Assembly: GCA_030040425.1 (NCBI GenBank)
Contig: JASHTS010000204.1
Location: forward strand, 1-42,637
Reading direction: 5' to 3'
Source of the DNA: Acidobacteriaceae bacterium
Lineage (GTDB): Bacteria > Acidobacteriota > Terriglobia > Terriglobales > Acidobacteriaceae
DNA length: 42,637 nucleotides
The notes under the pieces were generated by a model. It was given only the letters and a program-made list of their open reading frames with translations. It was not told where the DNA came from and did not search any database. Position numbers and translations under genes: made by a program. Positions 7,114 to 22,698 of this stretch are shown here, in pieces; position 1 is the stretch's first letter, and each line of letters opens with the position of its first letter.

Positions 7114-9576
7114 ATGTCCCTGCTTGATCCCATTTCGATGCCGGTGGAGCACGCCGATCTTGCAGCGCTCGAGTGGGAGCCGCTGCTCAGGCTGGTTGCC
7201 AGGTTTGCGGTTTCGCCGGTCGGCCGCGCGGGGATTCTCGCGCTTGTTCCCTCGACAGACGAAGCCTGGATTGCGACGCAGCATGCGCTCACGAGCGAAA
7301 TGCGTCTCTTGCTTGAGGAGCAAGTATCCATTGCGCTGGGCGGATTGCTCGATCCCACGGAATTGGCGGCGAAGGCGCGGATTCCCGATGCTGCTCTCGA
7401 GGCGGCGGATCTGCAAGCCGTGGCCCGACTGGCGCGCGATGGCTACGCCTGGGCCGCGCTGTTGCGCGAGCCGCCATCGCGCGTGGCGGGCAAACTGGAG
7501 AGTCTCAGCAAGCTTTCGGCAACCCTGAATCAAAATCAGAATCTGCGCACGCTCGCGGAAACGATCGAGCGGACAATTCAGCACGACGGGTCGATCGCCG
7601 ACGACGCGTCGCCGGAGCTCAGGCGCATCCGGCGGGAGCAGGAGCGGCAAAAGCGGGCGATCGAAGAGAGTCTGCGGACGGCGCTCAGAAAGCTGGCCAG
7701 CGAGGGCTCAACGCAGGATGACGTGATCACCATCCGCGGCGAGCGCTTCGTGATCCCGGTGCGCACGGAGATGAAGCGGCGGGTGAGCGGCGTGGTGCAC
7801 GGAGCGAGCTCGTCGGGGCAGACGGTATATGTGGAGCCGCTCGAAACCATTGACCAGAACAACGAGCTGGTGCGGTTGATCGAAGAGGAGCAGGCTGAGA
7901 TTCACCGGATCTTTGTGGCGCTGACGCGCCAGGTAGGCGCGCTGGCCGAGGCGCTCATGGAGGGAGCGCGAGTGCTGGCCACGGTGGACGGCATGCAGGC
8001 GCGGGCGCGCTTTGCGCGCGCCTACCAATGCGTGGAGCCAACCTTTGGAGAAAGCCTGCGGCTCGAGGACGCCCGGCATCCGCTGCTCGAGAAGAGATTG
8101 CGCGAGACTGGCGGCAACATTGTTCCGCTGGTCCTGGAGCTCACCGCCGACGAGCGGCAGCTTGTGATCAGCGGGCCGAACGCAGGCGGCAAGACGGTGG
8201 CCCTGAAGACGGCGGCGCTGCTGGCGATGATGGCGCAGGCGGGTTTGCCCGTGCCGGCTGCGGCGGCGGAGTTTCCCGTGTTCACCACGTTCCTGGCCGA
8301 TATTGGCGATGTGCAGTCGATCGAGGCGGCGCTGTCGACGTTCTCTGCTCACATTACCAACCTCGACCGGCTGGCGCGGCTCGCCGGTGCGCGCTCGCTT
8401 GTCCTGCTCGATGAGCTGGGTTCGGCCACCGATCCCGAAGAGGGTGCGGCGCTGGCCGTGGCGGTGGCGGAGTTCTTTCTCGAAGCACGGGCGTGGACGC
8501 TGATCTCGACGCATCACACCTCGCTCAAGGTGTATGCGGCCAACACCCCCGGCGTGCGCAACGCGGCCGAAGGCATGGAGGAGACAACGCTGGCGCCGAA
8601 TTACAAATTGGTGCCGGGCGTGCCGGGCGCTTCGGCGGGCGTCCAGACCGCGGAGCGGCTGGGATTGCGCAAAGAAATTGTTGCTGCCGCGCGTAAGCGG
8701 CTGGGCACGCAGCAAACGGACGTGGCCCGGTTCCTCGACAAATTGCATCGCGAGCTGGCGGAGCTCGAAGAAGACAAAAAGAAAGCGCGGGAGCAGCAGT
8801 ACGCGCTGAACCAGGAGCGCAAGAAGCTGGAGCGCGAGGGCGATGTGGAGATGCGCAACCGCGTGCGCGAACTCGAACAGAAGCTGGCTTCGCTGCTCAA
8901 GGACTTTGAGTTCCAGATGCGGGAGAACGTGCGCGCCATCGAGGACCGCGCGGCCCAGCAGAAGCTCTCCAAAGATGCCGAGCGGCGCATCAACCGGCTC
9001 CGGCGCGAGTTCCAGGAGAGTTTCAACCAGACCGTCGTGGCGCACCGGACGGGCGCGGACGCGGGCGATGCGCACGCGCAACCCCACGTGTTGAAGCACA
9101 TTGCGCCCGGCGACAAGGTGCTGCTGAAGTCGATGAATAAGGTAGCCGTGGTGCAGCGGGAGGTTGAGAAGGACCTTTTCGAAGTGGCGCTGGGGCCGAT
9201 TAAGATGCGGGTGAAGCGTGACGAGTGCTCCGCACTTCCGGGTTCTGGAGGACAAAAAGCCGATCCGCTCAGCGCCGCGCGGCTGCATAAGAACGTTCAT
9301 GTTTCGGTGACGGGCGCGAACACAGACGACCTGCGCACGGAGATCAACCTGATCGGGCGGACCGTGGATGAGGCGCGCGAGGAGTTGGAGAAGTATCTGG
9401 ACCGCGCATTTCTCGCGGGTCTGGAACGCGTGCGGGTGATTCATGGTCACGGCGCGGGCGTGTTGCGGCGCGGGGTGCGGGAGTTTTTGAGGGGCCATCC
9501 GCACGTGGCGGGCATTGAAGAGGCGGCGCAGAACGAGGGCGGCATGGGCGCCACGATGGTGGAGCTGCGGCAGTAG
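7114..9576 (+). CDS. mutS2: MutS2 family ATPase/endonuclease
   Basis: An 820-residue MutS2. Walker A is GPNAGGKT at residues 354-361, and Walker B is LVLLDE at 429-434 followed by GSATDPEEGAAL. A long coiled-coil rich in Lys/Glu covers about residues 530-650. A KOW-like segment (PGDKVLLKSMNKVAVV) precedes a C-terminal Smr domain, which has the INLIGRTVDEA and HGHGAGVLRRGVREFL motifs. By family knowledge MutS2 is not a mismatch-repair protein; roles in suppressing recombination and in rescuing collided ribosomes have been described. The Smr front motif usually reads LDLRG; here it is INLIG, which may affect nuclease activity. The start ATG at 7114 has only a weak purine stretch upstream. The gap to the symporter is 45 bases. 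Confidence 0.95.
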   Translation: MSLLDPISMPVEHADLAALEWEPLLRLVARFAVSPVGRAGILALVPSTDEAWIATQHALTSEMRLLLEEQVSIALGGLLDPTELAAKARIPDAALEAADLQAVARLARDGYAWAALLREPPSRVAGKLESLSKLSATLNQNQNLRTLAETIERTIQHDGSIADDASPELRRIRREQERQKRAIEESLRTALRKLASEGSTQDDVITIRGERFVIPVRTEMKRRVSGVVHGASSSGQTVYVEPLETIDQNNELVRLIEEEQAEIHRIFVALTRQVGALAEALMEGARVLATVDGMQARARFARAYQCVEPTFGESLRLEDARHPLLEKRLRETGGNIVPLVLELTADERQLVISGPNAGGKTVALKTAALLAMMAQAGLPVPAAAAEFPVFTTFLADIGDVQSIEAALSTFSAHITNLDRLARLAGARSLVLLDELGSATDPEEGAALAVAVAEFFLEARAWTLISTHHTSLKVYAANTPGVRNAAEGMEETTLAPNYKLVPGVPGASAGVQTAERLGLRKEIVAAARKRLGTQQTDVARFLDKLHRELAELEEDKKKAREQQYALNQERKKLEREGDVEMRNRVRELEQKLASLLKDFEFQMRENVRAIEDRAAQQKLSKDAERRINRLRREFQESFNQTVVAHRTGADAGDAHAQPHVLKHIAPGDKVLLKSMNKVAVVQREVEKDLFEVALGPIKMRVKRDECSALPGSGGQKADPLSAARLHKNVHVSVTGANTDDLRTEINLIGRTVDEAREELEKYLDRAFLAGLERVRVIHGHGAGVLRRGVREFLRGHPHVAGIEEAAQNEGGMGATMVELRQ

Positions 9577-9639
9577 AGGGCGATCTGCCGGCTGTCCGTT
9601 CCCAGCTGGTTGCCGTATGCCTAAGCGTAGGATGGAGCG

Positions 9640-10236
9640 ATGGAGTCAGACGATGAGCGCACGGAGAGCGAACAGCCTCCGTTGGGCGATATTCCGGCGC
9701 TCCCGGCCATCGAGCCCTCGCGTTCCGGCTGGCTGGGCCGCCGACGGCGGATGATGGTGCTGGTCGTCGCGGCGATCGGGCTCACTACCCTGTTCGCTCC
9801 TCTCATCCGGACGGACTCGCCTGTCCTTGGCAGGACGCAATGGTCGCCGCTTCAAATCGCCATCGATCTCGAGGAGGGCACACTCCCTCCCTGTTCCGGC
9901 GGAACGTTCTCAACCTGCGGGGACCCGCGAACGAGGGCGGTGTTTCTGATTCTCGACGCGGTTCTCGGATTTGGGTCCATGTATGCCCTGCTCTTTCTGA
10001 TTGCGGCCGCGGCCCTTGTCTTTCCGCGGAGAAACCTGGTGGGCATGGCAGCAATGCTCGGAATGGCCCCGCTCTATGTGGAAGCGAGGAGGCACAACTA
10101 CCCCGGCGTTCAGGATTTCCTCTACGGCGACCCGTTCGCCGGGCCTCGGGCACATGCCGGAGCGCTGGAGCTGATTTTTCTGGAAGTGTTTGCGCTTTTG
10201 CTTTGGATTGCGGTAACCAAGGCGCTGGATTACTAG
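9640..10236 (+). CDS. hypothetical membrane protein
   Basis: A 198-residue protein that I do not recognise. After a charged, acidic N-terminus (MESDDERTESEQPP) there is an RRRR patch and a helix at about residues 37-57. A presumably external loop follows with two cysteines (PPCSGGTFSTCGD). Three more hydrophobic segments lie at about 98-126, 130-145 and 172-195. The ATG follows GGAG at the right distance and a TAGGAT hexamer at 9629-9634. It is 63 bases after mutS2 and ends before the clpB terminator. The paired cysteines could form a disulfide in the periplasmic loop. Confidence 0.65.
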   Translation: MESDDERTESEQPPLGDIPALPAIEPSRSGWLGRRRRMMVLVVAAIGLTTLFAPLIRTDSPVLGRTQWSPLQIAIDLEEGTLPPCSGGTFSTCGDPRTRAVFLILDAVLGFGSMYALLFLIAAAALVFPRRNLVGMAAMLGMAPLYVEARRHNYPGVQDFLYGDPFAGPRAHAGALELIFLEVFALLLWIAVTKALDY

Positions 10237-10245
10237 GATAACCCG

Positions 10246-10281
10246 CAAAAGCAAAACAAAAGGCTCCGCGTTGGCGGAGCC
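10246..10281 (-). terminator. intrinsic terminator of clpB
   Basis: A perfect eight-base-pair stem (10262-10269 with 10274-10281, loop GTTG) is followed on the minus strand by TTTTGTTTTGCTTTT. On the plus strand only CGTTT follows, so it may also weakly end the upstream membrane-protein transcript. Confidence 0.75.
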
Positions 10282-10292
10282 CGTTTACTGAT

Positions 10293-10320
10293 CCCTGACA
10301 CCTGAACCCTGACCCCTGTT
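10293..10320. repeat. 7-base tandem array (4 units) at the clpB 3' end
   Basis: CCCTGAC, ACCTGAA, CCCTGAC, CCCTGTT run in register and stop one base before the clpB stop codon. They fill the space between that stop and the terminator hairpin. Confidence 0.65.
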
Positions 10321-10321
10321 A

Positions 10322-12946
10322 CTACGCCATGGCTTCGCGGCCCATGGGCTCGAAGGTCAGATGATTTGAGTTGCGGTCGGCGCCGATGCGCACGTGCGCG
10401 CCGTGCAGGATTTCGCCGTCGAGAATCTTGATGGCGAGCGGGTCCTGGATCATGCGCTGCAGCGCGCGCTTGAGCGGACGGGCGCCGTAAGCCGCGTCGG
10501 AACCGGAGGCCAGGATGAGCTGGCGCGCCGGCTCGGTGAGCTCGAGCGAAATCTGGCGATCTTCGAGGAGCTTGCGAATCTCGTTCATGCGCAACTCGAG
10601 GATGGCGTTCATCTGCGCGTGACCCAGCGGGCGGAAGATGACGATGTCATCGACGCGGTTCAAAAACTCCGGCCGGAAATGCTCGCGCAGTGTGCGCATC
10701 ACGCTCTCGCGCGCCATGTCGAAATCGTGCTCCGTCTTCAGCGCTTCGCCGGCGAGAAAGGCCGCACCCAGGTTCGAGGTCATGATGAGCACGGTGTTTT
10801 TGAAGTCCACCGTGCGACCTTTGGAGTCCGTCAGCCGGCCATCGTCCATCACCTGCAGCAAAATGTTGAAGACGTCAGGGTGAGCCTTCTCGATCTCGTC
10901 GAAGAGAATCACCGCGTAGGGACGGCGGCGCACAGCCTCCGTAAGCTGGCCGCCTTCGTCGTAGCCCACGTAGCCCGGAGGCGCGCCGATGAGACGTGCG
11001 ACGGCATGCTTCTCCATGTACTCGCTCATGTCGATGCGGACCATGGCCTGCTCGTCATCGAAGAGAAACTCGGCGAGGGCGCGCGCGGTCTCCGTTTTGC
11101 CCACTCCCGTTGGTCCAAGGAAAATAAAAGAGCCGATGGGGCGCTTGGGATCGCTCAAACCGGCGCGGGAGCGGCGGATGGCGTTGGCAACGACGGTGAG
11201 AGCCGCGTCCTGGCCGACCACGCGCTCCTTGAGGCGCTGCTCCATCTGCACCAGCTTTTTCACCTCGCCTTCGAGCATGCGGCTGACGGGAATACCGGTC
11301 CATTTGCTGACGATTTTGGCCACGTCTTCTTCGTCGACCTCTTCCTTGAGCATGCGCACGGCCGCGTTGGCGCCGTCCTGCGCGGCGTTCAGTTGCTTGA
11401 GCTCGCGCTCGAGTTTGGGCAGCTCACCATATTGGATCTGCGCGGCGCGCTCAAGCTGCCCCTTGCGGGTTTGCTCCTCCGCTTCGAAACGCAGGGCCTC
11501 AATCTTCTTCTTGGTTTCGGAAATGCGGGCGATTGCGTCGCGTTCCTTCGTCCAGCGGGCGCGGAGAGCCGTCGCCTGCTCCCGGACCGCGGCGACTTCG
11601 CGCTCCACTTCTTCGAGGCGCTCCTTGCTGTTCTTGTCCGACTCGCGCTTGAGGGCGGCGCGCTCGATCTCGAGCGACGTGGCCTGGCGCTCCAGCTGGT
11701 CGATCTCCGTGGGCACGGAGCCGATCTGGATAGCGAGCGAAGCGGCCGCTTCGTCGACGAGGTCGATCGCCTTGTCGGGCAGAAAGCGGTCGGAGATGTA
11801 GCGGTGCGAGAGCGTGGCTGCGGCCACAATGGCTGCATCCTTGATCCGCACGTTGTGGTGCGCCTCGTAGCGTTCCTTGAGCCCGCGCAAAATCGCAATC
11901 GTGTCTTCGACGTTGGGCTCGCCGACGTAGACGATCTGGAAGCGGCGCTCGAGGGCCGCGTCTTTCTCGATGTACTTGCGGTACTCGTTCAGCGTGGTGG
12001 CGCCGATGGCGCGCAGCTCACCACGGGCAAGGGCGGGCTTGAGCATGTTGCTGGCGTCGATGGCGCCTTCCGCGGCGCCGGCGCCGACGAGCGTATGCAG
12101 CTCATCGATAAACAAAACAATCTGCCCATTGGACTCTTCGATCTCTTTCAGCACGGCCTTGAGACGGTCTTCGAACTCGCCGCGATATTTGGCGCCGGCA
12201 AGCATCGAGCCGAGATCGAGCGAGATGACCCGTTTGTCGCGCAGGCTCTCCGGCACGTCGCCGGAGACGATGCGCCGGGCAAGGCCTTCAACGATGGCGG
12301 TTTTGCCCACGCCAGGCTCACCAATAAGGACAGGATTATTCTTCGTCCGGCGGCTCAGCACCTGCACCACGCGGCGAATCTCCTCGTCGCGGCCGATAAC
12401 CGGATCGAGCTTCCCGCGGCGGGCGAGATCGGTGAGATCTTTGGCATATTTTTCGAGCGCCTGGAATTTGCCTTCGGGGTTCTGGTCGGTCACGCGCTGC
12501 GAGCCGCGCACGGCCGTGAGCGCCTGCAGAATTGCTTCGTGCGAGGCGCCGAGGGCGGTGAGGGCTGCATTCGCGGGATCGTTCTTCTGCCGCGCGACGC
12601 CCAGCAACAAATGTTCAGTGGAAACGTACTCGTCCTTGAAGTTCGAGGCTTCGCGGAAGGCCTGATCGAGAACCTTGTTGAGCGCCTGGCTCAGACCAGG
12701 CTGGCCGGCGCCGCCGGAGACGCGCGGAAGTTTCTCCTCGATCTGGTGCAGGTCGTTTTCGAGGCGCTCCGTAGGCACACCAATTTTTTCGAGCACTGCG
12801 GGGATGACGCCCTCGCGGTCTTCGACCAGCGCGAGCAAAAGATGCACCGGCTGCATCTCGGCGTTGCCGAGCTCGGCGGCGCGGTTGCGCGCCTGCTCAA
12901 TCGCCTGCTGCGATTTGACCGTGAATTTGTCCCAGCGAATGGCCAT
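10322..12946 (-). CDS. clpB: ATP-dependent chaperone ClpB
   Basis: An 874-residue Hsp100 disaggregase of normal length. The order is Clp N domain (about 1-150), first AAA module with GEPGVGKT (about 205), middle coiled-coil domain (about 410-530), second AAA module with GPTGVGKT (about 605) and [13 protein letters not shown], and the C-terminal D2-small domain ending [10 protein letters not shown]. It works with DnaK to dissolve protein aggregates in the cytosol. The ATG at 12946 has AGGAG eight bases upstream, and that site is part of a 7-base repeat array (12953-12987). It lies downstream of hsp20 on the same strand with about 208 bases between, so co-induction is plausible. I found no CIRCE operator. 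Confidence 0.97.
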
Positions 12947-13154: not shown

Positions 13155-13619
13155 TTACGCTGCCAGCTTGTTGCCCGCATTCACGCCCACGTTGACCTTG
13201 ATCTGCCGGGGCTGCGCCTCGGGCTTCTTTTTGAGCTCGAGCTTGAGCACCCCAGCCGAGTAGCTGGCCGCCACGCTCTCCGTGTCCACGGTGTTCGGCA
13301 GAGTGAAGGCGCAATAGAAGCTGCCGTAGCGGCGCTCTACGCGATGGAAGTTCTCCTCCTTCTCTTCCTTTTCGAATTTGCGCTCGCCCTTGACTGTCAG
13401 GGTGTGGTTCTCGACGCTCACGTCCAGGTCCTTCTCCTCGATGCCGGGGACTTCGAGCTTGAGTACGACCTTCTTGTCGTCCTCGTAGATGTCGACGGCG
13501 GGAATAAAGCTGGCCGGGGTGAGGGCGCTCTCGCCGTCACTAAAGTCGCGGAAGAGCGAGTTGACGCGGTTCTGCAACACCGCCACTTCGCGGAATGGGT
13601 CCCAACGGGTGATTGCCAT
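13155..13619 (-). CDS. Hsp20/alpha-crystallin family small heat-shock protein
   Basis: A 154-residue small heat-shock protein. The N-terminal arm MAITRWDPFREVAVLQNRVNS is typical of the IbpA/HspA class. The alpha-crystallin domain covers about residues 40-140, with YEDDKKVVLKLEVPGIE and the conserved YGSFYCAFTLP strand, then the A-x-x-x-x-GVL-K-L motif (ASYSAGVLKLELKK). It holds unfolded proteins for ClpB/DnaK. Its start is well supported by AGGAGG seven bases upstream. The 190 bases upstream are strikingly AT-rich for this genome and hold the likely promoter. Neighbours: clpB downstream, the phosphatase operon upstream, all on the minus strand. Confidence 0.95.
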   Translation of the reverse strand: MAITRWDPFREVAVLQNRVNSLFRDFSDGESALTPASFIPAVDIYEDDKKVVLKLEVPGIEEKDLDVSVENHTLTVKGERKFEKEEKEENFHRVERRYGSFYCAFTLPNTVDTESVAASYSAGVLKLELKKKPEAQPRQIKVNVGVNAGNKLAA

Positions 13620-13701
13620 GATGAATTCCTCCTGGTGAATTCAAATTCATAGATCGGGCGGGAGCCTGACTCACCGCCGCTCAATCAATTTGATAAAACT
13701 A

Positions 13702-13740
13702 TAGCATATTTGATTCATAAAATATGAGTGTTTTATGCTA
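13702..13740 (-). promoter_or_regulatory. AT-rich dyad upstream of hsp20
   Basis: TAGCATA (13702-13708) and TATGCTA (13734-13740) form a 7-base inverted repeat. An inner pair, CATAAAA (13716-13722) and TTTTATG (13731-13737), is offset from it. On the minus strand a TATAGT hexamer lies just downstream. The position fits an operator/promoter for hsp20. It is not a CIRCE or HAIR consensus. Confidence 0.4.
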
Positions 13741-13807
13741 ATAGATTGAGAATCATCCATAACTCATTTGTTTTCTGTATGGAATAGCAAGCGCCTTTTA
13801 GGCGGCC

Positions 13808-15787
13808 TCAGGCCTGCACTTGGTCCGGCATGGCGAGTTCGAGCGCGCGACGCTGTCCGTCCGCCTCCGCGCGAATCACGGTCAGCACGGTGATGTCGTC
13901 CTCCTGGCCGTGGGCCTGCGCGGCGGCAGCGATGGTTTCGGCGGGTTGGGCGGAGATGTCGGCTGCGCGCTCGAAGCCGAAGAGCTCGCCGGCCTTGTTG
14001 CGGGCCTCGACCACGCCGTCCGAGAGGAAGGTGAGGCGGTCGCCGGGATCGAGGGACAACGTGAATTCGGTGTACGAAGTTCCAGGAACCACGCCCAGCG
14101 GGAGCCCGGAGCCGGACTTGCATTCGATGCCGTTGCGATACGGAGCAAGATGGCCGGCGTTGGCGAAGGTGAGCTGGCCGCCGTCGGAAAGATGCGCCAC
14201 GCTGCATGTGACAAACCCGCCGTCGGTAGTGGCCACCAGTTGTCCGTTCAGTCGCGCCAGGATCTCTGCCGGGCGAAGACTCTCTGCGGCGAGCGTGCGC
14301 AGTGCACCCACCACCAGCGTACCCAGCATGGCGGCCTTCAGCCCTTTGCCGCTCACGTCGCCAATGGCCAGCAGAACTGAGCCGTCGGGCTCTGGAAAAA
14401 CCTGGTAGAAGTCGCCGCCCACTTCGCTCGCGGCGAGATAGGCGGCCTCAAACTGGAAGTGCTGCGTGCGCGGAAGCTGCGCGGGCACCAGCTGGGCCTG
14501 CACGCTGTGCGCCGCTTCCATCTCGGCAGAGAGGCGCTCGTCGCGCTCGGCCGATTCCGCGAAGCGAAGCAGCAGAATGGCAGCCACGGCCAATTCGGCC
14601 AGCAGCATGAACACCTGGTTCCAGTTGATTGCAAACTCTGGACCGCGATAGAGCCAGAGGACCGGGGCAGATTTGATGATCGACATGTAATACAGGGAAG
14701 TGTAGGCGCCGGAAATCGCGGTCATGAGGGCGCTAAGTACGAACGGAACCAGCAAAAATTGAGCGTAGCGGCTACCGCGCCAGGCGAGCCTCACCAGGCG
14801 CGCGAAGACCAGAATGGCAAGGGCAAGTGAGATAAAGACCCAGGGCAGATTGGCCTCGGTGATGCTGATGGAACCGTATCGGGGCAGCCCAACGGGGATG
14901 GGCGCCAGCAATAACAAAATGATGCTCACGCGGAGCAGGTTATCGACAGGAATCCGGAGAAAGCGCCAGATGAAGAGCAGCCAGAAGATCAAGATGGCCG
15001 CTTCGAAACATGCCTCTGCGAAGACCCAGCCGTATGCGGGCAGTGGGCAAGTGCGGTAAAACCAGTACCCGAAGCTATAACAGGCATTCAGAAGAAGAAA
15101 CAGGGCTGCCCAGGCGTACTCGTCGGCGCGCCGGCGCAGAAGGAACAGCCCAAGGCTGAACATGCCGACGCAGCCGGAGACGGCGCCGACCAGCCAGATG
15201 GGAAGCTGGCCGATTGCGTACCGGAGGGTTTCGAGGTCGCGGAGGCTGGCAATGGCCCGCGCCGTTCCCACGCTCGGATTCGACGACAGGCCCGTAAAGA
15301 ACCCGCCCGAAGGCTCCTGCGGCTGCCAGACACGAATGGCAAGCAGGAAGGTTTTTCCGTTCAGGGCGCGCGGGAGCGCAACGGGGAAGACCAAAGGAGA
15401 GTAGCCCAGCCAAACGGGAACAGGACGCATCTTGCCGATGGTCCCCACGAGGCGGCCGTCGGCGTAGACTTCATCGGCGTTGCCTATCTCGTACAAACCC
15501 AGCGCCAAAGACGATCCTGTGGCCGGGAGTTTCAGCTTGATGCGGTACCACGCAAAACCGGAGTAATCCTTGTACCCCTGTGCAGGCCAGGATTTGTCGA
15601 GACGCAGGAGTGACCAATGGGAATCATCGAAGTTGGGCGCGGCCCACGCAGGATCATCGCCGGTGTGGAAACGCCAGGGCGATGCGATGGCGACCGGACC
15701 TCCTGCCGTGGAAACGTCAGCATACTGGCAAAGCGCGGCGGGGAGTGAGAGTAGGAAAAGAATCGTCACACAAAGAGCTCTAAGCAT
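13808..15787 (-). CDS. membrane SpoIIE/PP2C phosphatase, paralogue 1 (last gene of a four-gene array)
   Basis: A 659-residue protein. A signal peptide (MLRALCVTILFLLSLPAALC) is followed by an extracytoplasmic beta-sandwich-like domain with GDDPAWAAPNFDDSHW and YSGFAWYRIKL. About seven hydrophobic helices cover roughly 190-400. The cytoplasmic PP2C/SpoIIE phosphatase follows, with VGGDFYQV, GDVSGKGLKAAM, FLSDGVVEARN and the terminal QEDDITVLT. The Asp residues in these motifs are the metal ligands of the family. It probably dephosphorylates a partner-switching protein (Ser/Thr) in response to an external signal; the substrate is not known. The ATG at 15787 overlaps the end of paralogue 2 by eight bases (ATGCTTAG). 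I chose it over an upstream ATG because it begins the signal peptide and gives that coupling. Confidence 0.9.
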   Translation of the reverse strand: MLRALCVTILFLLSLPAALCQYADVSTAGGPVAIASPWRFHTGDDPAWAAPNFDDSHWSLLRLDKSWPAQGYKDYSGFAWYRIKLKLPATGSSLALGLYEIGNADEVYADGRLVGTIGKMRPVPVWLGYSPLVFPVALPRALNGKTFLLAIRVWQPQEPSGGFFTGLSSNPSVGTARAIASLRDLETLRYAIGQLPIWLVGAVSGCVGMFSLGLFLLRRRADEYAWAALFLLLNACYSFGYWFYRTCPLPAYGWVFAEACFEAAILIFWLLFIWRFLRIPVDNLLRVSIILLLLAPIPVGLPRYGSISITEANLPWVFISLALAILVFARLVRLAWRGSRYAQFLLVPFVLSALMTAISGAYTSLYYMSIIKSAPVLWLYRGPEFAINWNQVFMLLAELAVAAILLLRFAESAERDERLSAEMEAAHSVQAQLVPAQLPRTQHFQFEAAYLAASEVGGDFYQVFPEPDGSVLLAIGDVSGKGLKAAMLGTLVVGALRTLAAESLRPAEILARLNGQLVATTDGGFVTCSVAHLSDGGQLTFANAGHLAPYRNGIECKSGSGLPLGVVPGTSYTEFTLSLDPGDRLTFLSDGVVEARNKAGELFGFERAADISAQPAETIAAAAQAHGQEDDITVLTVIRAEADGQRRALELAMPDQVQA

Positions 15788-17723
15788 GCAGAACCTCGGC
15801 GGATGCGAGCGTGAGAGTAAGAACTGTGATGTCGTCTTCCTGGCCGAATGCTTGCGCAGCCTGGGCGATTTTGTCGGCGGGTTGTGTGCTGAGGTTGGCT
15901 GCGCGATCAAAGCCGAGGAGTTCGCCGCTTTTGTTCCGCGCTTCGACCACGCCGTCGGTGAGAAGAGTCAGCCGGGCGTGGGGGTGCAATGGAATGGCGG
16001 ATTCCGTATAAGCCGCGTCGGATCTCAGCCCCAGAGGAAGTCCATTGCCGATTAAGAGCTCCTCGCCGTTGAGATAGGGCGGGATGTGGCCGGCGTTGGC
16101 GGCCCTGATTGTGCCGTTAGGAGCGATGCACAGAACGAGACAGGTGGTGAAGCCTCCGCATTTCTGCGCGAGCATCTGCAGGTTCATGCCGTGCAGGATT
16201 TCGGCGGGGTTGCGGGTGCTCTGCGCCAGGGTGCGCAGCGCGCCCACAAGCAGGGAGACGGTCAGGGCCGCGGCCATGCCTTTTCCGCTGACGTCGCCGA
16301 TGACGACGAGGGCGCAGCCTCCGGGCGCGGCCAGGACCTGGAAAAAGTCCCCGCCGACCTCGCCGGCGGGCCGATAGGCGCTTTCCATCCGAATGCCGGG
16401 AATCTCGGGGATTTCGATTCCGACCAGCATCTGCTGCACGGAGCGCGCGGCTTCGAGTTCGGCGGCGGCGTGCGCCTGTTCACGGCTGACGCGCGTGAAG
16501 CGGAAGAACATGACAATCGCGATGGCCACGAGGAAAAGCAGGTTTCCCAGGTCGGAGATTTCAAGCGAAATGGGGCCGATGGGGAGGGGTTGAATGAATA
16601 TATTGAAGCGAGTCCAGCCGAAGTAGAAGGAAAGAAGACCCAGATTGAACAGCACCCCGGCGGCCGTAGGCAGCAGACTGGGAAGGATCAACCATCCCGC
16701 CTCGCGATTTCCGCGCCGGTACCACGCGATCAGAAGCGCGGGCAGCAGATACACGAGCGGCGCCGTCACCACGGTCTGCAGCAGGTCATAGGCATTCACT
16801 GAAAAATGCCCCAGCCAGACGGGCAGCACCAGCAGCAGTGGCAGAAGAATCACGCCCTCGTAGATTCGCCAGCCGCGCCCCACGCGCCGCTTGACGAAAC
16901 TGAGAGTGAACTCGAGCTCGGCGATGGCGATGGGATAAACCAACGGATCGGCGAGCAGGGTGTTGGCAGAGAGGGGCAGAACGCCGGCCTGCTGCAGGTG
17001 CCAGAGCAGATTCGATATGCCTGTGAGCAGAAGAAAGAGTCCGAGGAACAGGTAATCGCGCTCGGAGCGCTGGCCGATGTAAAGGGCCAGCGCGCCCAGG
17101 CCCGCCAGAATCAGCAGCAGGTTGATGGCGACCGAGGGAACCGCGGAATACATGCGATCGCTTTGGAGAGACTGAAGTTCATATTCGATGGCATCGTGAT
17201 CGCCCAGCGTGACTCCGATAAAAAGCGGAAGCTGGTAGGCGGCATAATCGGGCGTGGCGCGGGTGCGCAAGGCGAGATAGAAATCTCCCTGATCGTTGCT
17301 GAGCTCGAACTCACGTTCCGTAGGACGGCTGACGGCAAATTGGGACTTGATCTGCGCCCCCAGCATGCATTGCCCGTTGACGTACAGCTCGTAGGTGCCG
17401 TCGCCGCCGTCGATCAGAAAATGAACATTCTTGTGATCCGGTCCGACGCTCACGTGCTTGCGAAACCAGTGCCATCCCCGCTGTGCGGGACCCATGTCCT
17501 CGAGATCGACCGCCTGCCACGCACTGTCGTCGAAACCAGGGCTCGCCCACGCCAGGTTGTCGCCATCGTGCTCCACCCAGCCCTGATTCAACTCGATGAG
17601 CCCCGAGTCCCAACGAGTGATTTCAGCCGGCTTCTCGAGCGCGGTCTGCGCGCTGAGTGCGGCGGCCGCGGCGAGCCAAAGGGAAAGCGCGAGAACCAGC
17701 GCGAAGAGGCCCGGTTTATGCAT
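15780..17723 (-). CDS. membrane SpoIIE/PP2C phosphatase, paralogue 2
   Basis: A 647-residue protein with the same plan as its neighbours: signal peptide (MHKPGLFALVLALSLW...), external domain with GDNLAWASPGFDDSAW and WHWFRKHV, and YELYVNGQ in the same fold. Then come seven helices (about 190-400) and the SpoIIE domain with VGGDFFQVL, GDVSGKGMAAAL, LLTDGVVEARN and QEDDITVLT. All four acidic motifs are intact. Its start overlaps the end of paralogue 3 by eight bases (ATGCATAA), and its end overlaps paralogue 1. An upstream in-frame ATG at 17756 is less likely because it would put the signal peptide inside the protein. The phosphatase target is unknown. Confidence 0.9.
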   Translation of the reverse strand: MHKPGLFALVLALSLWLAAAAALSAQTALEKPAEITRWDSGLIELNQGWVEHDGDNLAWASPGFDDSAWQAVDLEDMGPAQRGWHWFRKHVSVGPDHKNVHFLIDGGDGTYELYVNGQCMLGAQIKSQFAVSRPTEREFELSNDQGDFYLALRTRATPDYAAYQLPLFIGVTLGDHDAIEYELQSLQSDRMYSAVPSVAINLLLILAGLGALALYIGQRSERDYLFLGLFLLLTGISNLLWHLQQAGVLPLSANTLLADPLVYPIAIAELEFTLSFVKRRVGRGWRIYEGVILLPLLLVLPVWLGHFSVNAYDLLQTVVTAPLVYLLPALLIAWYRRGNREAGWLILPSLLPTAAGVLFNLGLLSFYFGWTRFNIFIQPLPIGPISLEISDLGNLLFLVAIAIVMFFRFTRVSREQAHAAAELEAARSVQQMLVGIEIPEIPGIRMESAYRPAGEVGGDFFQVLAAPGGCALVVIGDVSGKGMAAALTVSLLVGALRTLAQSTRNPAEILHGMNLQMLAQKCGGFTTCLVLCIAPNGTIRAANAGHIPPYLNGEELLIGNGLPLGLRSDAAYTESAIPLHPHARLTLLTDGVVEARNKSGELLGFDRAANLSTQPADKIAQAAQAFGQEDDITVLTLTLASAEVLHA

Positions 17724-19635
17724 GCGCGGCTCCAAATTCGGCCGGGACCGGCGCAAAGGCCAGCGTCAGCACGGTGATGTCGTCCTCCTGGCCGAATTGT
17801 TGGGCCGCCTGCGCAATCTCGTCTGCTGATTTGCTGCTGATGTCTCGTGTGCGCTCGAAGCCGAAGAGCTGGCCGTGCTGGTTACGGGCTTCCACCACGC
17901 CGTCCGAGAGGAGGGTCAGGGTGTCACTGGGCGAAAGGCACACAGCGGATTCCGAATAATCCGCAGAGGCGGCAACTCCCAGCGGCAACCCCGGGCCGAG
18001 GTTGAGTTCCTCGCCATTGCGGTAAGGCGGCAGGTGGCCCGCATTGGCCAGCACCAGCTCGCCATGCCTCGTCACGTCAACGCAGAGGCAGGTGGCGAGA
18101 CCGCTGAGATGGTTTTCCCGGAACACGCGATTGAGGTTGGCGAGGAGGACCGCGGGGGGATCGGAATCGCGCGCAGAGGCCGCGCCCAGGATCAGTGTAG
18201 CGGCCATCGCCGCAGCCGCGCCCTTGCCGCTCACGTCACCCAACAACACCCGCTGGCGGCCATCGGGGAGAACACGGCAGAGATAGAAATCGCCGCCCAC
18301 CTCGCGCATGGGATGAAAGGCAACGTCGATGCGCAGGCCAGGCGCAGTTTCGACTCGCGCCGGGGCGAGCATTTGTTGGATTTCACCCGCCGCCTGCATC
18401 TCGCCGGCGAGCTCGGCACGTTCCCGCGCGGTACGCTGCTGTTCACGAAAAAGTAGGCCAAGCAAGGCAGCCGTCGCACACAGCGTAACCAGGGCCTGGA
18501 TCTCGTTTTTGGAGCTGACCCACCCCGAGAGCACCTCCAGGGCTGGGAAGAAATAGAGCATCATGATTGTCCCCCAGGCCATGCAGATGGCGGCGATCGG
18601 GATCATGCGCCGAGCAATGCGCTTCCAGGGCCAAAAGGCGACGAAAGCTCCTGTGTAGCTGAGTATGTGGCTGTAATTGCCTATCCCATCGGCTCGAAGG
18701 AACCCCATGGCGCCCTGAAGAGATAGGGACGAGGGCGCAGGAAGGAAGAGTCCCAATATCATCAGTAGGAGCCTCAGCGCGTAGAGACTGAACAGAAGCC
18801 AGAAGAAGAGGGGCATGCGCCGTCGCGCAACGGCGAATGGGAACCATACCTGACCCAAACCGGCTGCGAGCGCCGAAACGCTGCCGGAAAGCATGTCCAG
18901 CCAAACTGGTACACCTGCGAGTGCGGCCTGGCCGAAGAAGGTCACAAAGATTCCGGCCACTCCGATGCAGGCAACACTGAGAATCAGCAACTCCCTGCGG
19001 CTACGGTCGTAGACAAACAGGGCAAGCAGCATCAACCCGAAAATGGCGTTGACTCCGAAGATGACCAGGTTCTTGAAAGGCGTGGGGAGTTGACCCAAAA
19101 CGATATTGGAACGCCGCCAGTCCAGGATCTTCGTGTCCCCTGCGTCCATTGCAAGTGGAGAGGTTGGGAGGGGCCATGGCGCGCCCAACAGACGATAGGT
19201 AATCCGCAGCGCAATGGTCGCGGGCTCGTCCAGAATCTGCGCCGATGACAGCGGATAGGTCCGGATGACATTCACGCTGAAGTACCCGCTGCGCAGATCG
19301 CCCGCGCCGCCAACTTTATTGCCGTCGAGGTAAAGCGCGTAAGCACCGTAAAGGCTCACTTGCAGGGCAGCGTGCGGGTCGGTTCGGAGAGCGACCAGGT
19401 CGGTGTGACAGCGAATCCAAATATGGGCCTGGTCAGAATGCGGACGCCATTGCGTATACGGCTGCCAGCCGGACTCGTCCAGATTCGGCGTGGCCCAGGC
19501 CGGATTGTCTCCGGCGCGCCAGAAGCACTGCTGCGGCGAGACGGTGAGGACAGATTGGGCCAAAAGCGCGGCGGGAAGCATCGCGGGCGCGAGCAGGAAA
19601 AGCAACGGGAAAAACTTGCCGGCAGAAAGATTCAT
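17716..19635 (-). CDS. membrane SpoIIE/PP2C phosphatase, paralogue 3
   Basis: A 639-residue protein. A signal peptide (MNLSAGKFFPLLFLLAPAML...) is followed by an external domain with GDNPAWATPNLDESGW; here the central motif is DES instead of DDS. YALYLDGNKVGG lies in the same position as in the other copies. Seven helices are followed by the SpoIIE domain: VGGDFYLC, GDVSGKGAAAAM, LLSDGVVEARN, QEDDITVLT. The start is eight bases after the stop of paralogue 4 (GGAC in the gap). The N-terminal domain is the most divergent of the four (IWIRCHTDL replaces the usual WYRK), which suggests another ligand. The substrate is unknown. Confidence 0.9.
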   Translation of the reverse strand: MNLSAGKFFPLLFLLAPAMLPAALLAQSVLTVSPQQCFWRAGDNPAWATPNLDESGWQPYTQWRPHSDQAHIWIRCHTDLVALRTDPHAALQVSLYGAYALYLDGNKVGGAGDLRSGYFSVNVIRTYPLSSAQILDEPATIALRITYRLLGAPWPLPTSPLAMDAGDTKILDWRRSNIVLGQLPTPFKNLVIFGVNAIFGLMLLALFVYDRSRRELLILSVACIGVAGIFVTFFGQAALAGVPVWLDMLSGSVSALAAGLGQVWFPFAVARRRMPLFFWLLFSLYALRLLLMILGLFLPAPSSLSLQGAMGFLRADGIGNYSHILSYTGAFVAFWPWKRIARRMIPIAAICMAWGTIMMLYFFPALEVLSGWVSSKNEIQALVTLCATAALLGLLFREQQRTARERAELAGEMQAAGEIQQMLAPARVETAPGLRIDVAFHPMREVGGDFYLCRVLPDGRQRVLLGDVSGKGAAAAMAATLILGAASARDSDPPAVLLANLNRVFRENHLSGLATCLCVDVTRHGELVLANAGHLPPYRNGEELNLGPGLPLGVAASADYSESAVCLSPSDTLTLLSDGVVEARNQHGQLFGFERTRDISSKSADEIAQAAQQFGQEDDITVLTLAFAPVPAEFGAAHA

Positions 19636-19643
19636 CCCGGTCC

Positions 19644-21734
19644 TCAGGCCTCCGCAAAGACCGGGATGGTGAGCTCGGTGGTGGATTGCTGACCTTTGGC
19701 CAGGCGCGTGATGGTGAGCACGGTGATGTCGTCCTCCTGGCCGAAGCGGACGGCGGCCTCCGTGGCTTCTCCGGCGGCGGGACCGCGAGCGAAGAGGGCG
19801 TTGAGTCGCTCGAATCCGAAGATCTCGCCTGCGGGCGAGCGGGCCTCGAGCAGGCCGTCGGTGTAGAGAGCGAGGTGGTCGCCTGGCTCGAGCTGGTGGG
19901 CCGACTCCTGGAAGACGGCGTTGGGCGCCACGCCCAGCGGCAGCGCGCCGGGCAGGGAGAGCTCGCGGCGATTGAGGAACGGCGGCGGATGGCCGGCGCT
20001 GGCCACCACGCAGCGTCCGTCGTGCGAAAGCAGGACCACGACGCAGGTGGCGAAGCCGCCCTGCAGGCGGGCGAAGAGGCGCTGGTTGAGCTCCCCAAGC
20101 AGACGGGAGGGACGCGGATCGAAACTGGCCAGCGCGCGGATGGCGCCGACGATGAGGGAGACGGCCATGGCGGCGCGCAGCCCCTTGCCGCTGACGTCGC
20201 CGAGAACGATCAGCGTGGAGCGGGCGAAGGCGCCTTCAAGGGGGATGATCTGGAAGAAGTCGCCGCCCACCTCTTGCGCGGGCTTGTAGGCGCTGGTGAC
20301 GGCGTAACCGGGCAGCTCGGGGAGAATCTCCGGGATAAGCACCCGCTGCAGCTCGCGCGCACTCTTGAACTCCTGCTCCAGCAGGCCCTGGCGGACAGAG
20401 GTCTCCTGCATGTAGCGGTAGACGGCGTAGATGATAGCCAGCAGCAGCAGCGTATCCGTGATGGTTTGCACGGTGAAGGCGTTGCCGAGAACCAAAAAGA
20501 GCGGATGGTCGAGGCGCTGTCCAAGCGTCCAGTGGGTGTAGCGAGAACCCTGCGAGGAGGCGATACGGAAGACGAAGAGGAATTGCGTGAGGAATGCGGT
20601 GATGGCGACCAGCCAGCGCGCCGGCTCGAGGCGCTTACGCAGGCCGAAAGCGAGCAGCACCCAGGGAAAAAACTGGAGGGCGGTAAAGACAGCGGTGAGC
20701 GCGCCATCGACCGGCTGAACCCAGGAGGCGATCCATGGCTTGCTCCAATCGAACAAGGCAAGCGCGCCGTCGAGGGAAGTGGCAATCAGGCTGGTAATGG
20801 CGAGGAGGCGCGTGGTCCGGGCGAGACGGCGGTTGCCATCGAGATCAAGCAGATAGAGCAGGAGATACCAGAGGCCGATGTCCTGCAGGCTGCCCAGCGG
20901 CTGAATGGCGGCGAGTGCGACGTCGTGGGAGATGGGCAAACGCAAGCCAACCAGAAACATGTCCACGAAGGGCGCGCCGCAGAAGACGGCCATGGCCAGC
21001 AACAGGGGATGGGAGCGGTCGCGGAACCAGGCCAGCAAGCTGAGGAGCATGACCAGCGCATAAAGCGAGCGCATGGCGAAGTAATACTGACGACTCTGCA
21101 GCCACGTGTAATCGTCGCTGGTTTTGATGGACGCAAGGGTCTGAAGAGAACCGGCGAGAGGTGTGGCCGCAAATCCACCGAGGGAGTCGGGATCGAAGGA
21201 GATGAGAGGGGCCTTCCAAACGCGGACGGCGAGGATGCCGTAGCGCACCGGGCCGAGATGGACAATCTGCGGCGCCTGGGAGTACAGGTGAGAAGGGTGC
21301 GGCGGCATCGAGCCGTTGTGGCCCACAATCCGGCCGTTCCAGAAGACCTGGTAAACATCCTCGACGTGCTCGATGAGGAGGTAGAAATCGGGCGAGGCGC
21401 CGGGCGCAGGGGTGAGGCTCAAATGTTTGCGGTACCAGGCGTAGCCGACGTAGGCGGGATGGCCCTGCGCGCCCCAGGTGGTATCGGTGGTGATCTGCTC
21501 CCACCCGTTCTCACCCGTCGCATCGGGCGTCTGCGGGATGGCGTAAGCGGAGTTGTCGCCGAGGTGGAACTGCCAGGGACCGTCAAGCGGCGCTGCGCCT
21601 TTGCCCAGGCCATCGATTTGCAGGACCGGCGCTTGGAGCATGGCGGGCACGATTTGCGCAGTGACGATTCCAGGGACCAGAGGAAATAAAACGCAGACCA
21701 GTCCCACAAGCCTCAGAAAGCGGTGGGGAATCAT
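19644..21734 (-). CDS. membrane SpoIIE/PP2C phosphatase, paralogue 4 (first gene of the array)
   Basis: A 696-residue protein. The ATG at 21734 starts a signal peptide (MIPHRFLRLVGLVCVLFPLV...). The frame is open further upstream, but that part reads as low-grade sequence antisense to the exporter gene. The external domain has the related GDNSAYAIPQ...NGWEQI, GYAWYRKHLSL and VFWNGRIVG, with an insertion compared with the other copies. About seven helices lie at roughly 215-425. The SpoIIE domain has VGGDFFQII, GDVSGKGLRAAM, LYTDGLLEARS and QEDDITVLT. It leads the presumed operon, whose promoter must lie in the 151 bases shared with the divergent TauE gene. No clear Shine-Dalgarno is seen at its start. 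Confidence 0.88.
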   Translation of the reverse strand: MIPHRFLRLVGLVCVLFPLVPGIVTAQIVPAMLQAPVLQIDGLGKGAAPLDGPWQFHLGDNSAYAIPQTPDATGENGWEQITTDTTWGAQGHPAYVGYAWYRKHLSLTPAPGASPDFYLLIEHVEDVYQVFWNGRIVGHNGSMPPHPSHLYSQAPQIVHLGPVRYGILAVRVWKAPLISFDPDSLGGFAATPLAGSLQTLASIKTSDDYTWLQSRQYYFAMRSLYALVMLLSLLAWFRDRSHPLLLAMAVFCGAPFVDMFLVGLRLPISHDVALAAIQPLGSLQDIGLWYLLLYLLDLDGNRRLARTTRLLAITSLIATSLDGALALFDWSKPWIASWVQPVDGALTAVFTALQFFPWVLLAFGLRKRLEPARWLVAITAFLTQFLFVFRIASSQGSRYTHWTLGQRLDHPLFLVLGNAFTVQTITDTLLLLAIIYAVYRYMQETSVRQGLLEQEFKSARELQRVLIPEILPELPGYAVTSAYKPAQEVGGDFFQIIPLEGAFARSTLIVLGDVSGKGLRAAMAVSLIVGAIRALASFDPRPSRLLGELNQRLFARLQGGFATCVVVLLSHDGRCVVASAGHPPPFLNRRELSLPGALPLGVAPNAVFQESAHQLEPGDHLALYTDGLLEARSPAGEIFGFERLNALFARGPAAGEATEAAVRFGQEDDITVLTITRLAKGQQSTTELTIPVFAEA

Positions 21735-21885: not shown

Positions 21886-22698
21886 ATGACACACGTGCAG
21901 GTTCTCTTCGCTGCTCCTTCGTTGCGATGGGTGTGGCTGGTGGCGGCCGCCTTTCTGGCCGGAGTGCTGAATGCCGTGGCCGGAGGCGGCTCGTTTCTTT
22001 CCTTTCCGGCGCTGCTGGGCATGAACATGCTGCCCGTGCAGGCAAACGCGACCAATACGGTTGCCATCTGGCCGGGACAACTGACGAGCGTGGCTGCCTA
22101 TCGCGACGATGTGCGCAGAAACCTGAGCTCCGCGTGGCTGATGGGGCTCGCCGGGCTGGCCGGCGGATCCGTGGGCGCGGTGGTGCTGCTGAGCACCCCG
22201 CAGAGGACCTTCATGCGCCTGGTGCCATGGCTGCTGCTGGGTGCGGCGTCGACGTTTGCGGTGAGCGGGCCGGTCTCACGCGCGCTCAAGCGGCTGCAAG
22301 TGAAGCGGGCCGAGCGTGCGGCCGAGGGCGAGGAGTTTGCGCCGCGGCGGCTGCCGCTGTTCGTGGTCGCGATGGTGGTGAGCTTTTACGTGGGTTACTT
22401 CGGCGCGGGTGCAGGTTTCGTCTTCATGACCGTGCTCGCGCTCTTCGGCTACCAGGACATCAACGTCATCAATGCGCTCAAAGTGGTGGCCAACATGCTC
22501 GCCAACGGAATTGCCTTCGTGATTTTCATCGCCGATGGGCAGGTGGTGTGGCGATACTGCCTGGCGGCCATGGGTGCAGCGGCCATCGGCGGCTACGCCT
22601 CGGCGAGCATGGCGCGGCGCGTGCCCCAGCCGGTGCTGCGCGGGCTTGTGGTGTTCATCGGCCTCGGGATGGCGGCGTGGTTTTTTGTAAGGCAGTGA
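21886..22698 (+). CDS. TauE/SafE family sulfite/organosulfonate exporter-like membrane protein
   Basis: A 270-residue polytopic protein of the TauE/SafE (UPF0721) family. The first half starts with the helix WVWLVAAAFLAGVLNAVAGGGSF, and the family's glycine-rich AGGGSFLSFPALL is clear. The second half repeats the fold with FYVGYFGAGAGFVFM. About eight helices in total. Family members export sulfite, sulfoacetate or similar anions; the substrate here cannot be read from sequence. It is divergent from the phosphatase operon. Its stop codon lies at the very start of a 7-base repeat array. Confidence 0.88.
   Translation: MTHVQVLFAAPSLRWVWLVAAAFLAGVLNAVAGGGSFLSFPALLGMNMLPVQANATNTVAIWPGQLTSVAAYRDDVRRNLSSAWLMGLAGLAGGSVGAVVLLSTPQRTFMRLVPWLLLGAASTFAVSGPVSRALKRLQVKRAERAAEGEEFAPRRLPLFVVAMVVSFYVGYFGAGAGFVFMTVLALFGYQDINVINALKVVANMLANGIAFVIFIADGQVVWRYCLAAMGAAAIGGYASASMARRVPQPVLRGLVVFIGLGMAAWFFVRQ

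Follow-up and report, generated by a model that had tools for sequence, protein, structure and literature searches.

In the RsbU/RsbP-RsbW-RsbV system, the partner switch for general stress in Bacillus subtilis, a PPM phosphatase acts on a STAS protein and is opposed by a GHKL kinase. The present work concerns four tandem genes (A, B, C and D) for receptor phosphatases with seven transmembrane helices (7TM), located in a 42,637-nucleotide stretch of DNA from an Acidobacteriaceae bacterium (assembly GCA_030040425.1, JASHTS010000204.1). This whole stretch, referred to as the window, corresponds to C293, one of the contigs of a 75%-complete genome of 4.56 Mb. Linker-driven dimerisation switches PPM phosphatases of this type (PMC12143880), and a linker-controlled phosphatase dimer is a feature that the array shares with the Bacillus system, together with a fold match to the RsbU domain of Rv1364c. 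The array differs from that system in its 7TM membrane input with a sugar-binding-like ectodomain, in its four to ten tandem paralogs with the partner module in trans, and in a genome (75% complete) without a SigB-type sigma factor over the cut-off.

The SiaABCD system of Pseudomonas aeruginosa differs from the array in having one phosphatase with another input region and a diguanylate cyclase as output, and we know of no tandem receptor array in it. The PP2C domain of SiaA was the second best fold match of the phosphatase of D. SiaABCD is reported to consist of a membrane phosphatase, a kinase and a STAS-like switch and to respond to carbon availability; it demonstrates that the output of a switch of this kind can be c-di-GMP rather than a sigma factor (PMC7647112). 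Like the window receptors, the 7TMR-DISM receptors of Anantharaman and Aravind join an ectodomain and seven transmembrane helices to an exchangeable module for signalling inside the cell, and 4 of 25 relatives of the window receptors matched PF07695 (7TMR-DISM_7TM; best E 1.2e-6). However, the ectodomain of the window family is of GH2 type, with no match to DISMED1/2 in Pfam scans of 53 ectodomains, and A to D had no match to PF07695 in a Pfam profile search. Chemoreceptor sets feeding one CheA offer a functional analogy only, with diverse inputs, a conserved output domain and few downstream proteins; their proteins and chemistry are unrelated to those of the array. No paper on such receptor-phosphatase arrays was found in the literature searched, most subscription journals lying outside it. 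We consider it reasonably probable that the four genes form a sensor bank, in which diverged, probably carbohydrate-sensing receptors converge on one STAS partner switch.

Organization of the array

Gene calls filled positions 13808-21734 of the minus strand with four co-oriented genes, A (19644..21734, 696 aa), B (17716..19635, 639 aa), C (15780..17723, 647 aa) and D (13808..15787, 659 aa), which belong to subfamilies A to D, respectively. An earlier note, made from the DNA of the window, had described four consecutive minus-strand genes of one shared architecture, joined by 8-base overlaps or an 8-base gap; the gene calls, the domain matches and a model of D agreed with this description. B/C (17716..17723, ATGCATAA) and C/D (15780..15787, ATGCTTAG) overlap by 8 nucleotides (nt), the former with the junction motif of the family, CATGC[GAT]TA[AG]. 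A/B, the sole junction of the window array without an overlap, has an 8-nt gap within a strong hairpin (19633..19668, minus strand), formed by the inverted repeat CATCCCGGTC...GACCGGGATG, which covers the stop codon of A and pairs the ATG of B. This hairpin may replace the overlap as a coupling device. As a structure it was not unusual, for the pairing is real but its z of -1.15 is ordinary for the base composition. A scan for consensus sigma-70 promoters found 0 against 1.5 expected by chance and is uninformative for Acidobacteriota, and terminator-like sites were more numerous than in shuffles, none of them decisive. Genes A to D are probably co-transcribed.

Domain anatomy of the receptors

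The architecture was confirmed as a signal peptide, a GH2-type beta-sandwich, a 7TM region, a helical linker and a SpoIIE/RsbU-type PPM phosphatase. In the AlphaFold model of D, a signal helix is followed by a beta ectodomain (residues 33-176, 15260..15691, minus strand as for all parts of D) and seven transmembrane helices (residues 186-410, 14558..15232), the last of which runs unbroken into a long linker helix (residues 411-440, 14468..14557) that leads to the PPM domain. Since hydropathy alone gave 5-6 transmembrane segments after the signal peptide in A to D, the number seven, previously given as approximate for all four proteins, is modelled for D only.

A fold search with full-length D was swamped by the phosphatase domain, and the ectodomain was therefore folded and searched alone. 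Modelled separately along with 52 relatives (pLDDT 90), it had the GH2 N-terminal jelly-roll fold (PF02837), and its structure search was filled with GH2 domains, including beta-glucuronidase 6ed1 (Foldseek E 1.2e-10; Z 16.0 over 138 residues, root mean square deviation 2.5). In the Pfam scans, 15 of the 53 ectodomains matched GH2_N at E<=0.01 (best 2e-8), and GH2_N and BetaGal jelly-roll domains were the only ones returned. The ligands are thus likely to be carbohydrates, putatively glycans or oligosaccharides.

SpoIIE (PF07228) was matched in A to D with 142, 114, 129 and 138 bits, respectively, against a Pfam cut-off of 25. The phosphatase domain of D (residues 441-640, 13868..14467) carries the acids D459, D477, D590 and D630/D631, and its best fold match was the RsbU domain of Rv1364c (Z 25.8), followed by SiaA PP2C (Z 24.3). 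The acidic residues of the GGDF, GDVSGKG, DG and EDDIT motifs were invariant across A to D. In the family alignment, the metal-binding D459, D590, D630 and D631 were kept in all 121 members and D477 in 120 of the 121. The catalytic motifs are therefore intact in each gene, as had been claimed, and the loss of metal-binding residues that would have spoken against four active copies was not seen in A to D.

Among the four window proteins, the PPM domain showed 50% identity, as against 24% for the ectodomain and 15% for the 7TM region. Three variable loops set the substrate choice of such PPM phosphatases (PMC11418112). The docking-loop regions of the window proteins were 44-52% identical, on a par with the remainder of the PPM domain, which fits one substrate for all four.

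The putative partner switch

The earlier note had found no STAS/anti-sigma partner for the phosphatases in the window. No STAS or RsbW gene was indeed present there, but a genome-wide search ruled out the absence of a partner, as the same genome contains two RsbW-STAS pairs, one on contig C284 (RsbW, then STAS) and one on C196 (cytosolic phosphatase, RsbW, STAS). Comparison of genomes makes the STAS protein of C196 the better candidate partner. A C196-type STAS gene was found in 18 of the 19 genomes of the genus (one of them a partial match), which are exactly the 18 with a 7TM receptor; it occurred once per genome, and twice in two genomes. Both receptor and C196-type STAS were missing from G011 (96% complete) and from all 12 sister-family genomes. 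Among 141 genomes sampled evenly from the class, 15 had both receptor and STAS, one had the receptor alone, three had STAS alone and 122 had neither (Fisher P 2e-16, which takes no account of shared ancestry). The conserved STAS/RsbW module is present once per genome, as against 1-15 receptors.

The two components are also neighbours in many relatives, although linkage of a receptor to the kinase/STAS module was not seen within the window. In 12 of the 15 genomes having both, STAS lay at most about 4 kb from a receptor gene, and in single-receptor genomes it was within about 4 kb of that receptor. The C196-type STAS family occurred at 6 of the 77 receptor loci recovered by scanning a genome collection, where about 0.26 were expected. 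In loci L150 and L151, the order was cytosolic SpoIIE phosphatase, rsbW, STAS and receptor on one strand, with a STAS/receptor overlap of 4 nt in L150 and an 11-nt gap in L151. The receptor of L117, nearest kin of gene C, was 2 kb from such a phosphatase-rsbW-STAS module, a D-clade gene came after the module in L050, and two arrays (L049 and L072) were directly flanked by STAS genes of the C196 family. In L117, the receptor is separated from the switch module by genes at 7964-9452 for two proteins of 227-233 aa with an N-terminal STAS domain.

We propose the following mechanism. Each receptor would sit in the inner membrane with the GH2-type jelly-roll domain outside, and the ligand would likely differ for each paralog. 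Ligand binding would be relayed to a dimer of PPM phosphatases via the seven helices and a linker that forms a coiled coil. A single phospho-STAS protein would probably be the substrate of all four phosphatases, with the RsbW-like protein of the C196 module as the opposing kinase, and several external cues would thereby be summed on one partner switch. We infer the identity of the substrate and the control target of the free STAS protein. A profile search found no SigB, SigF or SigG sigma factor over the cut-off in the 75%-complete genome, and outputs other than such a factor are possible. The earlier idea that co-made sensors combine several signals onto one target thus gained from the single STAS/RsbW module for 1-15 receptors, their co-occurrence and adjacency, and the conserved docking loops, whereas the premise of a missing partner holds for the window only.

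Several points weigh against this reading. Phospho-STAS phosphatase activity of A to D is a prediction from sequence. Sugar binding is suggested by the fold and by weak Pfam matches, and the window proteins themselves fell under the GH2_N cut-off (A scored 21.1 against 28). The receptor counts are lower bounds obtained with one profile. G104 has a receptor without STAS, and STAS occurred without a receptor in G064, G076 and G172. The cytosolic phosphatase of the same module has longer docking loops than the 7TM family, so that it and the receptors may bind STAS in different ways or act on different substrates. Moreover, the second RsbW-STAS pair, C284, could serve as an alternative partner in the window genome, and L153 carries both pairs together. 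In that locus (8610-10752) the C284-like and C196-like pairs stand side by side near a receptor, an arrangement that suggests one larger network.

The strongest competing explanation is that the paralogs are insulated, each receptor having its own phospho-protein substrate (a different STAS), and that the array is a chromosomal by-product of duplication. Up to 14 STAS proteins in larger genomes of the genus, a relation between receptor number and RsbW number (rho 0.65) and the second pair at C284 agree with this. We nevertheless regard it as unlikely, because the docking-loop regions within the array are conserved like the rest of the PPM domain, the presence of a single STAS family follows that of the receptor from genome to genome, and the phosphatase half has been repeatedly homogenised among paralogs while their sensors differ, as described below.

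Arrays in relatives and exchange of the phosphatase half

The architecture, which had been called rare, is instead widespread in this lineage of Acidobacteriota, and its tandem arrays were found repeatedly. The receptor relatives are Acidobacteriota, mostly Acidobacteriaceae. Three or more receptor genes follow one another in at least 14 of the 77 loci, so the array is not unique to the window, and since the same arrangement recurs in many genomes it is not due to chance. The largest array comprised ten SpoIIE genes in a row, with steps of about 1.9-2.05 kb save one shorter step; another had seven receptor genes in a row, and one 4.8-Mb genome had arrays of five, four and three among 29 SpoIIE matches in all. 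The 55 close junctions included 35 exact 8-nt overlaps, nearly all of them CATGC[GAT]TA[AG], and 12 overlaps of 4 nt, a count that leans towards overlaps because start codons were picked near the upstream stop. As the same junction is shared across arrays, sequence comparison suggests that it was duplicated along with the gene unit; independent convergence on a coupling overlap might also account for it.

In a tree of 72 receptors, each of the four window genes fell into a supported group of its own. Other species are represented in every one of these groups, which indicates an old repertoire and not a fresh amplification. The sister of gene C, for example, was in L117 (52% identity). Recent tandem duplication of one gene was rejected on the basis of these four subfamilies and of their identity of about 30%.

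The two halves of the receptors have had different histories in other arrays. In arrays of at least three genes, the nearest relative was found in the same array for the phosphatase domain of 14 of 52 members and for the sensor part of 1 of 52. In six same-array pairs, DNA identity climbed from about 0.4 to about 0.7-0.9 at residues 421-440, within the linker. At four-fold sites, L060_2 shared 74% with its sensor ortholog L072_3 in the sensor part and 43% in the phosphatase, as against 27% and 64%, respectively, with its array neighbour L060_1. Silent sites agreed with exchange in most tested pairs but not in L068_0/L068_3, where the exchange may be older. Of the 34 array members for which a sensor ortholog was clear, 15 had a phosphatase closer to that of an array paralog. 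Such reversals would not be explained by slow evolution of the phosphatase alone. These comparisons indicate that phosphatase halves in many arrays have been swapped or made alike, with the break at the linker, while the sensor halves stayed diverse. Within the window there was no clear case of recent homogenisation (PPM identity 47-56%), with a weak hint for C only.

Arrays would have arisen as genes were duplicated in tandem, with the 8-nt coupled junction preserved, and as the sensors then diverged; recombination inside arrays would swap or homogenise the phosphatase half. In L049 (1665-4070, the same as G016/G033 C39:3048-4043), an open reading frame (ORF) of 801 aa has one sensor part followed by two consecutive SpoIIE domains, as expected from unequal exchange within an array. 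We tentatively suggest that the arrays are recombining cassette banks. Sensor halves would diversify for different glycans, and the continual swapping of phosphatase halves at the coiled-coil linker would keep every receptor, possibly within a mixed dimer, matched to one STAS switch.

Conserved neighbours

On one side, the array is flanked by a divergent TauE/SafE permease gene (21886..22698, plus strand) and on the other by hsp20 (13155..13619) and clpB (10322..12946) on the minus strand. The distance from the stop codon of D to the start of hsp20 (13619) is 188 nt, as reported earlier. The order tauE, receptors, hsp20, clpB was conserved with one receptor in L079, two in L102, three in L065 and L094, four in the window and five in L092, and in L068 four receptors were followed by hsp20 at the locus end. 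Gene A, the first of the array, adjoins tauE, as do A-type receptors in L079 and L092. Upstream of hsp20, positions 13620-13760 form an AT-rich spacer in a contig of 63% GC, which probably contains the hsp20 promoter.

It has been suggested that this adjacency links the array to stress control. The adjacency itself was kept in at least five other genomes; given the 188-nt spacer, the link is no more than a possibility. If the array served general or heat stress, receptors and chaperones would form one regulon or operon, as their co-orientation, the synteny in L065, L079, L092, L094 and L102 and the hsp20 gene that ends L068 might suggest. This is very unlikely, however, because the spacers are 80-190 nt, SigB/F/G was not found over the cut-off in the 75%-complete genome, many arrays and single receptors elsewhere lack hsp20, and conserved order alone does not show co-regulation. 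That the genes are redundant or partly decayed tandem duplicates without distinct function, to which the variation from 1 to 5 receptors at the same locus and the fused double-phosphatase ORF of L049 could be related, is highly improbable in view of the intact catalytic acids and of four old subfamilies, each kept in several species.

Other neighbours were considered as clues to the ligand. In L117 (9932-13184), the subfamily C receptor gene and a GH8 glycosyl hydrolase gene overlap by 8 nt, and in L098 a GH127 gene lies about 12 nt downstream of the receptor; both are possible clues. As a general guide the neighbours were rejected, since GH8, GH127 and PfkB genes adjoin some receptors and other neighbours are mixed. 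In L085 (11987-13156; Occallatibacter savannae), the receptor phosphatase gene is followed by that of a histidine kinase whose N-terminal domain resembles that of ethylene receptors (ETR1_N).

Implications

A partner switch is normally depicted with one or two phosphatases, whereas here one switch is apparently fed by up to fifteen diverged membrane receptors, many of which stand in tandem arrays of as many as ten. Cassette banks, if they exist, would be the phosphatase counterpart of chemoreceptor fan-in. If the four genes are indeed a sensor bank converging on one STAS switch, these families would provide a natural set for studying how many phosphatases match one substrate, how 7TM bacterial receptors signal through a linker, and how soil glycans of plant and microbial origin might be perceived by acidobacteria.

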